IMG/VR virus record: IMGVR_UViG_3300047170_000049
Location: 1 to 64,000 of that record
Source of the DNA: a virus
DNA length: 64,000 nt
Strand: one strand, 5' to 3'
Every line of letters starts with the position of its first letter. Within the stretch, counting starts at the first letter, position 1. Made by a program: the position numbers and the translations under genes. Below the pieces are notes generated by a model. That model was not told where the DNA came from. It did not search any database and saw nothing but the letters and a program-made list of their open reading frames with translations. This document shows, in pieces, positions 7,654 to 50,890 of the stretch.

Positions 7654-10600
7654 TATGTAGCCGCCAATGAAACCACAACGTTAGTGATGGCATTTAGAAC
7701 AACTGGCTTCTCATTGGCCTTGGTAGAGATTTGTTCGTTATCAGCGTTGTATGTGGGTGAACTGATAGCCACGGCTTGAACACCGTCAACACTACCTGCA
7801 GCGGTAACCACATCACTGAACACAACTGGAGCGCCAACGCCTAGAGCATTAACATATGCTGCCACGGCTGATTGGACTCGTGATTGTAATAGGGTGAATG
7901 GCGTACCTGATTGGGTCTTAATAACAATATTCAATGTAACGAATAATGGGAGTGGAGAATCAATCTCAATGAATGAACCTGCCGCTGCCACACCAGGGAA
8001 TGATACGGTATCGGTTGGTTCGCCACGGATTACTTCGCCTACAGCATGGATTAGACCGCCGTAATACTTGTACGAGTCTTGGCCTGATTCAACTGCATTA
8101 CTGAAACCAAACTTACTAATGGCATTGATGTTTGAGCCTGCAGTTTGGTTAATCTTGGATGCTAGGTTAGCGCCATAAAGAATAACGTTTACCGTATTAG
8201 CATCGCTAGGGCTGATTGCGAGATTTTTAATCTTCTTGTATGCGTAGTATGGATTCTTTTCTAATACGAGAAATTGTTGGAAGTTAACACCTAAGTTAAC
8301 TGGGCCAACTGATACCGCTGACATTTCCACGACTACTTGGGTAGGTGAGGGGAATTGTGCGAATGTGTTGAGGTTACCTTGTACGGTGAAGCTACCTTCA
8401 TTGACTGCGCCTAGGATAGGACCAGTGATTTCAACGGTGTCACCAGGCATAACTGAATCATATGAATAAAAGCTTAGGTCTGAGTTGTTGGCTAAGGTAT
8501 AATTACCCTTAACGAAATTGGAGTTAAGGATATAGAAAGCGTTGTTACCAAATACCTTCTCGACCTTGAACACACCACGGTTTAAGCCCGTGAAGATGCC
8601 GTTCATGAGAACCCAGTCACCTTCTTGTAAGCCACCGCCTACGAAGTTAGGTTGAGTTCCAACACCAGTCCAGCTAACGCATACGAATTGGCCTTGAGCT
8701 TCAACCTTCATTTCAGTCGTGTTATTGCCTGAATGGGTGCGTTTGGTTTGGAATGAGCCTGCAGCACTAATGGTTATGGTAGCTAAATTGACTGAAGGCG
8801 TATTAGCTTGGATTTGGATGGTAGTCGATGATGTGGATTGAATGTTCTTATCTTGGGTAGCAGTGTTCTCAATCTCAATCCATTGGTTGGCATGTAAGCC
8901 ACCAACGTTATTCTTACTAATACCAAATACGGTATAGTTCGTATCGAGTTGCGCACCAGCTTGTGATACGGCAGACTCTACGGCATTAGCTGAACCACCA
9001 GATACTTCCACTGAACCACTAGAACCAAAGAGGTCTGAGTAAATCTGGATGCGGCCAGCTTTATCGCTAACGGTTATATTCCCTAAAGAACTTAGCCCAG
9101 TAACCGAGAATATGTTTAAGAACGCAGCTACTTGAGCCGCACGGGTTGGGATAAGGTAGTAGGTCTCACCAACTAGGCTATAGAGAGAAGAGCTTAATAG
9201 CGTAGGGCGTTTTAATACGAATTTATTCTGAGGGCTGATTTGCGTACCAATGTTACTAGAGCTAATCCAGTTCTCACCGTCCACTAGGTTTAAGTATGGG
9301 CTACCAGTATCGTCTTGCGTTGATGTGGTGATATTGCCCGTGCCTAACTCTAATTGGGTGGCAGTGACATAAGTGCTGAGGTTGTTGTTGATGTACGCAC
9401 CAATGAAGTTAGCCGTATTAAGTGATGGGCTAAGGGGATAGAACACGAAGTCGGTTTGGTTGTTTAACAGTACCGTACCTTCTGCCGAGCCTGCAACGTT
9501 AGTTATCTCGAAATACAAGTCCGATACTGCCGTAACAATATATGTCCCTTGGTTATTAGATACGAAGGATGATGTGGTGTTGATGTTTACGATGTCGCCC
9601 ACTTGAACGCCAGCGCCTGATACGAAGTTAGGTTGGTCACCAGCTACCCAAGAGTAACGATAAGTGTTGCCACTCGTATTAGTTACGTTCATTTGGGTAG
9701 TGTTATCCCAGTTACCACCAAGACGTTGAGGGTTGGAGGCTAAGAAGATTTGGATTTGGGTTACTTCTGATACCATTACATTGGATTGCAATGCTGATGC
9801 AGGAGTAGTTGGATAGAAGATACCTATTTGAGCATTATTGCCCGTGGGTCCATAAGAGCTATAGCTTAGGAGCATTCCATTGTTTGCACCTGCAGGGTCC
9901 ATGACTTGACGGGCCTTGAAGTAGATTTTGTAGTCTTGGAAGCTAAAGTTATTGCCGAATGAAGCAGGGTAATTAGCCGTAGGACCGTTCTCTGAGTCAT
10001 ACCCAGTGAATGTGGTCGTAGTGGGTAATGAGCTATTGGATACCGTACCATTGCGGCTTAGGGGGATGTTTAAAGACTTGTTAACTGAATCGCCATCAAG
10101 GATTACGACTAGGTTATCTTGTGAGTCGAAATCATATGGTACGCCATAAGCATATCTGTCGCCTGCAATAATGTCTCTGAGCTTTAGGTCTGGACGGATA
10201 GTTAATGCAGTTCCACTTTCTGCAGCCAATTGGGTATAGAGTTGGTTGTTTGAGCTAAATCCATCGGCAGGGTCTAAGAACTGAATGAGTTGGTTTGGAT
10301 TCTCATTAGCTGAATTATCCGTTGTTCCAGTAAAGTTGGTTGGGGGGATAGTTCCTGTACCTGTAGCCACCGTGTCGAATATAAAGTCAGGCATGGTGAA
10401 TTCAGATGTGAGTGATTCGTCATAAGCTATGTGCGATACGGTTGAAGCATCGTTATAACCTAATACGAAACCAATGATTTTACTTGAATCGTTAATACCA
10501 ACTACGGCGATACGACCTTCTGTAGGGCTAAACGTATTAGATACCAAGCGCAGAGTTGTTGCGTTGATTACTTCAGCAAACCCGCCTTGGAGTTGTGCAT

Positions 10601-48521: not shown

Positions 48522-48578
48522 AAATACTAAAGTTTTAAAAACAGATGCCGAATAGTAGTATGTAACAAGGAGAAACAT

Positions 48579-49368: not shown

Positions 49369-49374
49369 AACTAA

Positions 49375-49394
49375 AGGGCACCTTTCGATGCCCT
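49375..49394 (-). terminator. Putative terminator downstream of tRNA
   Basis: Minus-strand hairpin AGGGCA-TCGAAAGG-TGCCCT followed by TTAGTTTT. It lies about 50 nt past the tRNA CCA end and just beyond the plus-strand family gene, so it may end the minus-strand transcript. The T-run is interrupted. Confidence 0.45.
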
Positions 49395-49441
49395 CTAGTG
49401 GGATACTGCCGCCCGATAGCTTGATTTACCGTTCGGCAATT

Positions 49442-49516
49442 TGGTAGCGGGTCTAGGAGTCTAACCTAGCGTGATACGGTTATGAGCCGCACCAGTCCAC
49501 ACGTTCTCTACCCGCG
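49442..49516 (-). tRNA. tRNA-Met (CAT), initiator-like
   Basis: 75 nt with encoded CCA. The acceptor stem pairs GCGGGT with ACCCGC (positions 2-7 and 66-71), leaving a mismatched C1.T72 as in bacterial initiator tRNAs (C1.A72). The anticodon arm TGCGG-CTCATAA-CCGTA gives CAT (49482-49484) with T33 and A37. The T arm CTAGG-TTAGACT-CCTAG is a perfect 5-bp stem, but loop base 56 is A, not C. The D arm is poor: only a 2-bp AG/CT pairing is visible. It lies downstream of the protease gene. A CAT tRNA-Ile2 (lysidine type) is an alternative. Confidence 0.65.
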
Positions 49517-49522
49517 AAATAA

Positions 49523-50308
49523 TTAACGTCTAACAGTCCAAAAGTCTGAAGCAAGGTCATCGCTTGAGATGTAAGCGTATGGCATAAAAAAGTATCCACG
49601 AACACCCCAGTCAGGTCCCCAACTATTACGAATCTTCATCATTTGAGTTTTATCATCGTAACCTACGCACATAACTGCATGACCACCTTCTGGTGCGTCA
49701 TCGCCTGAAGGCATTGCAAGAATACCGTCTTTAGCCATTTGCTCAGATTCCATTTGTGAATAAACGGTGAATCCAAATACGAATGGGAATCCAGCGGCCA
49801 AACAATGCTTCATATCGTCCAAAGATTCTAAACGAAGGTATTGGCTAATCTTATGCGTAGCAGCTTGAGTGAAAGATTCTTGCGTTGGTTTATGATAAAG
49901 GTTGTTTGGATTGTAGGGCCAAACTAATTCGGTGCAAGCTCCAATAGAAGCTAAAGTTTTAATACCGTCACGAAGTTGAGCGCCACCGTCTTGATGTGGG
50001 TCACCTTCTAAAACTCGTTCATTCCAGTAAATGAATAAACGGCTTACATGCTCAAACTTAGCATCGAACTCTTCAGGAGCGTTAGTTTGACTAGCTTTCA
50101 TTTCAGCTAATTCCAAGAATTCAAGATTACCAGCTAAAGAGTTGGCGGTACATGAACCGATTTGGCCTTGGTCGAAAACAGGTGAGCATAGTGGCTCTAA
50201 ATCGACTGAAGCAGGTAACGCTGCAGGTGCTACATCAGCAAGTCTTAAAGTTTTATATTTCTTATCTCTATGGTCAGGTAGGTCTGGGTTCCAATTATAT
50301 TTTTTCAT
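49523..50308 (-). CDS. Papain-like (C1 family) cysteine protease
   Basis: 261 aa. Catalytic Cys53 in DQGQIGSCTANS, His in PEGGHAVMCVGYDD and Asn in RNSWGPDWGVRGYFFMP, with the oxyanion Gln in DQGQ. The sequence from LPASVDLEPLCSPVFDQGQ onward matches mature C1 proteases; there is only a short N-terminal lead and no signal peptide. Start at ATG 50308 (AAAGGAAAG upstream) rather than TTG 50323. It follows the tail tube gene after a hairpin. It may process virion proteins or host targets. Confidence 0.8.
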   Translation of the reverse strand: MKKYNWNPDLPDHRDKKYKTLRLADVAPAALPASVDLEPLCSPVFDQGQIGSCTANSLAGNLEFLELAEMKASQTNAPEEFDAKFEHVSRLFIYWNERVLEGDPHQDGGAQLRDGIKTLASIGACTELVWPYNPNNLYHKPTQESFTQAATHKISQYLRLESLDDMKHCLAAGFPFVFGFTVYSQMESEQMAKDGILAMPSGDDAPEGGHAVMCVGYDDKTQMMKIRNSWGPDWGVRGYFFMPYAYISSDDLASDFWTVRR

Positions 50309-50323
50309 GGTCTTTCCTTTCAA

Positions 50324-50404: not shown

Positions 50405-50890
50405 TTAGAATTCTGGAGTTGCTGGGATAACTCCACCGCCGTCATTAACGTCCGTATCGCTACTTTCGTCATGAGCGCGTAAGCCTTGGAAGGTAATGCT
50501 AATGTCACTAACCGCTCTAGCAGTAACACCAGAGTTATATCCAGTGGGACGGCAATGAAGGGCTGTGAAAATAGCTTGTCCAGTTTGACGGTCAACAATT
50601 TGAATTGTTAAATCATCAGCGGACATAAGTTGGTTAAGTTGGGGAAGTCCAGCGGCTTCATAAGCACCTTGACCAACAACACGATAACCAGTAGCAGTGA
50701 TATTGATTGCTTCTTGTCCCGTGTAGGTGATTTCTGCAGGTGAGTATCTGCCTAAGATATAAGCTGGGTTCGTATCGTAGTTGACACCCCAAGTACAACT
50801 GGTGAAAATACCGATTGTTTGAGCTTGTCCGCTAGCAGAGGCAATTTGTACAATTGCTCTGGACCCATGTAATACATTTTGGTCTGCCAT
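50405..50890 (-). CDS. Tail tube protein
   Basis: 161 aa, directly downstream of the sheath gene, the standard order in contractile tails. Beta-rich with the tube-fold pattern (RAIVQIASASGQAQTIGIFT, YSPAEITYTGQEAINITATG, LTIQIVDRQTGQAIFTALHC, VSDISITFQGLRAHD). The acidic/Gly C-terminal tail (ESSDTDVNDGGG) is probably exposed. Strong RBS (AAGGAG). It forms the hexameric rings of the inner tube. Confidence 0.78.
   Translation of the reverse strand: MADQNVLHGSRAIVQIASASGQAQTIGIFTSCTWGVNYDTNPAYILGRYSPAEITYTGQEAINITATGYRVVGQGAYEAAGLPQLNQLMSADDLTIQIVDRQTGQAIFTALHCRPTGYNSGVTARAVSDISITFQGLRAHDESSDTDVNDGGGVIPATPEF

Follow-up and report, generated by a model that had tools for sequence, protein, structure and literature searches.

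The question raised by this locus is whether a lone and oddly built tRNA-Met gene in a phage genome encodes a working initiator. The stretch analysed (the window) covers positions 1-64,000 of IMG/VR virus record IMGVR_UViG_3300047170_000049, whose 159,288 bp belong to a phage related to Myxococcus phage Mx1. ARAGORN called a minus-strand tRNA-Met(cat) spanning exactly 49442-49516, and separate scans identified it as the sole tRNA of both the window and the rest of the record. The program returned 0 matches in 40 Markov sequences of 64 kb each, modelled on the window; BLASTN of the tRNA region against phage records gave no match. The gene reads CGCGGGT A GAGA ACGTGTGG ACTG G TGCGG CTCATAA CCGTA TCACG CTAGG TTAGACT CCTAG ACCCGCT ACCA. 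Its acceptor stem forms six of six pairs plus a C1.U72 mismatch; the anticodon stem (one G.U) and the T stem form five of five each. The CAU anticodon lies within a CUCAUAA loop, ACCA is encoded and base 56 is an A. The sequence-only reading had placed a tRNA with CAT and an encoded CCA at the same coordinates, to which ARAGORN added the strand, and the C1.T72 mismatch, the D arm of at most two pairs and the A56 that it listed are all present in the sequence.

Table 1. Features of the tRNA-Met locus and of the genes preceding it (window coordinates).
Feature	Position	Strand	Basis
Tail sheath protein, 40% identical to that of Myxococcus phage Mx1	50911..53709	-	
Homologue (45%) of the Mx1 gene after the tail sheath	50405..50890	-	
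Papain-family (C1) peptidase gene	49523..50323	-	Pfam PF00112, 8.4e-14
Initiator-like tRNA-Met gene	49442..49516	-	ARAGORN; phage-initiator covariance model, 59.4 bits
Base C1	49516	-	
D arm, two pairs (A11:U24, G12:C23); proposed C15 = 49503, G18 = 49500, U19 = 49499	49492..49509	-	Model alignment, parse, D-stem survey
Anticodon CAT	49482-49484	-	
Variable loop TCACG; G48 = 49470, proposed partner of C15	49470..49474	-	Sequence; C15:G48 in 8 other phage initiator-like tRNAs
T loop TTAGACT; A56 = 49462, proposed partner of U19	49458..49464	-	Sequence; class covariation
Base U72	49446	-	
Encoded ACCA	49442-49445	-	
Strong two-part hairpin directly 3' of the tRNA, between tRNA and terminator	49404..49440	-	RNA fold z = -5.1; not a tRNA
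13-bp GAAA-loop hairpin, then a short T run; likely operon terminator	49369..49400	-	RNA fold z = -8.2

The D arm is where the molecule departs most visibly from the rule. Only A11:U24 and G12:C23 form in the stem, and the region spanning positions 7-10 is short by one base; two pairs or fewer were found in just 7 of 200 other viral initiator-like tRNAs. Alignment to a covariance model of phage initiators (see below) assigned the D loop as A14 C15 G16 U17 G18 U19 and the T loop as U54 U55 A56. With this assignment, A56 faces a Watson-Crick partner at position 19; the register has one alternative, with G19 facing A56 if base 20 is missing. Most likely, therefore, U19:A56 replaces the near-universal G19:C56, and C15:G48 probably stands in for G15:C48. 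The term degenerate, applied to this tRNA by the sequence-only reading, thus suits the D stem, which is truly reduced, but most likely not A56, which U19 would compensate. The closest member of the class, L203, has a T loop identical to that of the window tRNA and a D loop reading GCGTGTGT.

Since U19 and A56 could be matched after the fact, viral contigs were scanned for initiator-like tRNAs with any base except C at position 56. In this search, whose patterns fix part of the acceptor stem and the anticodon loop and whose contigs are predicted to be viral, all 11 cases with A56 had G18-U19, all 8 distinct cases with G56 had G18-C19, and 14 of 16 with U56 had G18-A19, the remaining two having G-G. 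The matching D-loop dinucleotide was present in 34 of the 35 distinct phage initiator-like tRNAs without C56, against a permutation mean of 22.3 (0 of 20,000 permutations as high, p <= 5e-5). When kinship was handled by thinning at 80%, 22 of 22 were matched. Because D loops of unequal length fall out of register, registering positions 18 and 19 by covariance-model alignment was abandoned and the subset with 7-nt D loops was taken instead. Here, with the register fixed, 81 of 83 tRNAs were Watson-Crick at 19:56, with four pair types represented, and the 18:55 contact was G:U in 53, A:G in 30 and mixed in none. The latter distribution reflects a second swap, in which T loops with G55 C56 accompany A18 G19: in an unbiased sample, UC T loops went with GG in 47 of 47 cases and GC T loops with AG in 14 of 14. 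Phage tRNAs thus carry U19:A56, C19:G56 and A19:U56, as well as A18:G55 in place of G18:U55. The same variants occur in phage elongator tRNAs, so that the swaps are not special to initiators. As a rough estimate, made from the overlap of two pattern scans, 1-2% of viral initiators lack C56; with the G55 type included, bases 55-56 are non-canonical in 18 of 65 (28%). No earlier report of swapped 19:56 or 18:55 pairs in phage tRNAs was found in the open-access literature. At five other loci (L076, L114, L136, L125 and L132) U54...A58 of the T loop is exchanged for A54...U58, which looks like a third matched swap at the elbow.

The non-C56 pattern was also searched in the genomes of 84,980 bacterial and archaeal species, where it gave 12 matches. 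One (L224) is not a tRNA. Four tRNAs with A56 (L220, L222, L228, L229) all keep GG and, together with one U56 case (L230), look like point changes or errors. The compensated matches were L221, L223, L225, L226, L227 and L231, three of which lie in dense tRNA arrays typical of phages. As for the G55 type, it occurred in 0 of 299 genomes of one phylum; the canonical form was present in 47 of 60. Among phage tRNAs, matched elbow swaps proved common; on bacterial chromosomes they were very rare.

The surroundings of the gene bear on its origin. Between the stop codon of the peptidase gene and the 5' end of the tRNA downstream of it there are 6 nt, a gap suggesting that the two are probably co-transcribed; the hairpin listed as the likely terminator was not called by a consensus terminator scan. 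In Mx1 and in L233, an Mx1-like phage, the slot after the sheath gene and the gene next to it is occupied by a tRNA array with a tmRNA. The window tRNA has the same genome position, and may therefore be the sole survivor, or the sole member, of such an array. Among the tRNAs of the Mx1 array is an initiator with U1 whose elbow is unusual (A18/G55); the array amounts to about 35-36 tRNAs plus the tmRNA in the stretch scanned, as against a single tRNA in the window phage. Searches with the sheath found no close relatives; those with the peptidase found two, with no tRNA adjoining the gene and no copy of the window tRNA, and the one relative found with the tube protein also lacks a copy.

Several other elements were seen in these and related genomes. 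The Mx1 tmRNA (L057:27328-27704, by ARAGORN) is unannotated in its record, with two short genes annotated over or beside it. In L233, positions 9683-10240 hold a tmRNA and a match to the Pistol ribozyme (39.6 bits) within the tRNA array. A GOLLD RNA (222.8 bits) lies in another phage tRNA array (L195:2601-3063), adjoining an initiator with the U19:A56 swap. Relatives of the papain-like peptidase occur at L055 and L056, and near tRNAs in L216 and L176. A 39-bp stretch (G000:C1:71827-71865) is 85% identical to window positions 48527-48565 and is possibly a repeated regulatory site.

A lone tRNA in a slot that holds arrays in Mx1 and L233 could be what is left of an ancestral array, its last tRNA now in decay and losing its D-arm structure. 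The two-pair D stem and the base missing near position 10 would fit such a history, as would the behaviour of the gene towards the general tRNA model: Rfam RF00005 did not match it at the gathering threshold (29 bits), nor up to E = 5-10. Swapped-elbow tRNAs L195 and L133, both with full D stems, scored 59.0 and 64.3 bits with this model, which indicates that the failure of the window tRNA comes mostly from its D arm; this cause is the best argument for decay. Initiator L203, with its identical T loop, was not listed by RF00005 either, and L015 scored barely 29.0 bits. Against decay, however, the acceptor, anticodon and T stems are complete at 16 pairs, the CCA and the 1:72 mismatch have been retained, and compensation seems to have occurred at two tertiary pairs. 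Such a combination is not what random decay would produce, and we regard a remnant as unlikely.

To distinguish an initiator from an elongator, one covariance model was built from 30 other viral initiator-like tRNAs and a second from 24 CAT elongators (Met/Ile2), the window sequence being excluded from both. With the initiator model the window tRNA scored 59.4 bits (E 1.5e-11 over 160 kb); its score with the elongator model was 17 bits lower, at 42.0 bits, a gap widened in the initiator's favour by a training set picked for its GCGGG/CCCGC acceptor stem. The second-best site of the whole record reached 13.7 bits with the initiator model. In the same test, initiators at other loci scored 54-90 bits and most elongators and other tRNAs less than 49. 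The C1.U72 mismatch is inside the phage range, CU being among the common states of 1:72 in a complete pattern scan of 65 distinct viral initiators (UU 17, CA 15, UA 11, AA 9, CU 6). Initiators of relatives are odd at this position too: it is U.U in G001 (whose peptidase is 56% identical) and in L233, and U.G in Mx1 as read here. Within the model alignment the tRNA has A11:U24, an assignment that depends on the one-base gap at position 10; the elongator mark, pyrimidine11:purine24 with a paired 1:72, is absent.

Compared with bacterial tRNA-fMet (CAU), the window tRNA shares the CGCGGG acceptor start, the open 1:72, the CUCAUAA loop, A11:U24, the encoded ACCA and three consecutive G/C pairs at 29-31:39-41. 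It differs in having U72 rather than A72, a two-pair D stem, and the proposed U19:A56 and C15:G48 instead of G19:C56 and G15:C48. Also, one pair of the anticodon-stem block is reversed, so that G29G30G31:C39C40C41 becomes C29:G41, G30:C40, G31:C39. The strict block occurs in just 14 of 108 viral initiator-like tRNAs and so does not define the phage members. Those in IMG/VR (for example L203, L195, L191 and L133) resemble the window tRNA in the acceptor stem, in the swapped but matching 19:56 and, in many, in U72; unlike it, most have a D stem of 3-4 pairs. A 15-base anticodon-arm pattern was rejected as an initiator diagnostic, most of its 47 viral matches not being initiators.

These data leave little room for an origin from an elongator tRNA, Met or Ile2, by a mutation of base 1 that turned A1:U72 into C1.U72. 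Phage CAT elongators of the form AGCGGG...CCCGCU do exist, some with U19:A56 (L209, L212), and C29:G41 departs from the strict initiator block; the poorer elongator score, A11:U24 and the mismatched 1:72 all argue the other way and make this origin quite improbable. The initiator-like character noted in the sequence-only reading was thus borne out by the model scores, by pyrimidine1.U72, as in many phage initiators, and by A11:U24. The fMet versus elongator Met/Ile2 comparison it called for favoured the initiator, with the score under the general Rfam model staying below threshold. Two of its suggestions did not survive. That phages rarely carry an initiator tRNA is contradicted by at least 120 viral contigs matching the U72-subtype pattern alone. 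Altered start-codon use was rejected, as it receives no support from the CAU anticodon in its ordinary CUCAUAA loop or from a rough survey of window starts with the best Shine-Dalgarno match, which were mostly ATG (13 ATG, 2 TTG, 1 GTG). That the gene specifies a tRNA-like RNA serving something other than translation, for instance as an attachment site or as a structure at the 3' end of the operon transcript, is most improbable: its place between the operon and two strong hairpins would suit such a role, but the full tRNA anatomy, with anticodon and encoded CCA, and the failure to find a tyrosine-type phage integrase in the record speak against it.

We thus favour, with a probability of about 0.65, a working though divergent phage-encoded initiator tRNA, read through from the tail operon and compensated at its elbow. 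We infer a sequence of events in which the late tail operon, running from sheath and tube through peptidase and tRNA to the terminator, would be transcribed by read-through and the tRNA freed by host RNase P and 3' trimming. The host would then charge it with methionine, and formylation would follow, the open 1:72 pair allowing it. Such a tRNA may sustain initiator levels in infection when the host's own pool is being degraded or damaged, the A56-U19 and G48-C15 pairs presumably preserving the L shape despite the two-pair D stem. Counting against this working-initiator reading are the miss by the general Rfam model, largely via the D arm, the lack of the strict GGG:CCC block, the alternative 19:56 register, the failure of the sheath, peptidase and tube searches to find a close relative with this tRNA, and a training set whose choice by acceptor stem favours the initiator model over the elongator model. 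No phage RNA ligase or formyltransferase was found in the record. Replacement of tRNAs cut by host nucleases has been proposed as a role of phage tRNAs, and one study notes a tendency among phages to avoid tRNA-fMet in cases where it is the VapC target (PMC10264068); having kept an ordinary anticodon loop, the window tRNA shows none of the anticodon-loop changes described in that work.

The broader interest of the locus lies in the elbow. Both G19:C56 and G18:Psi55 count as near-invariant in tRNA, and the ribosome as well as many tRNA enzymes read the exposed 19:56 pair (PMC4810234). In phage tRNAs, matched changes of these contacts are far more frequent than on bacterial chromosomes, which makes the swapped molecules natural double mutants of the elbow and explains how some phage tRNAs can escape general tRNA models. 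The elbows could have drifted through intermediates that were tolerated, or selection could have acted against enzymes that read the elbow. More tentatively, and with the odds against it, one may imagine a large set of phage tRNAs, the window tRNA among them, in which selection has re-keyed the 18:55 and 19:56 contacts by matched changes; these tRNAs would stay competent on the ribosome yet evade or disregard the elbow-reading enzymes of the host, be they defences that cut tRNA or modification enzymes such as TruB and TrmA. Such a selective reason, evasion of elbow-reading nucleases or modification enzymes, would be directly testable.
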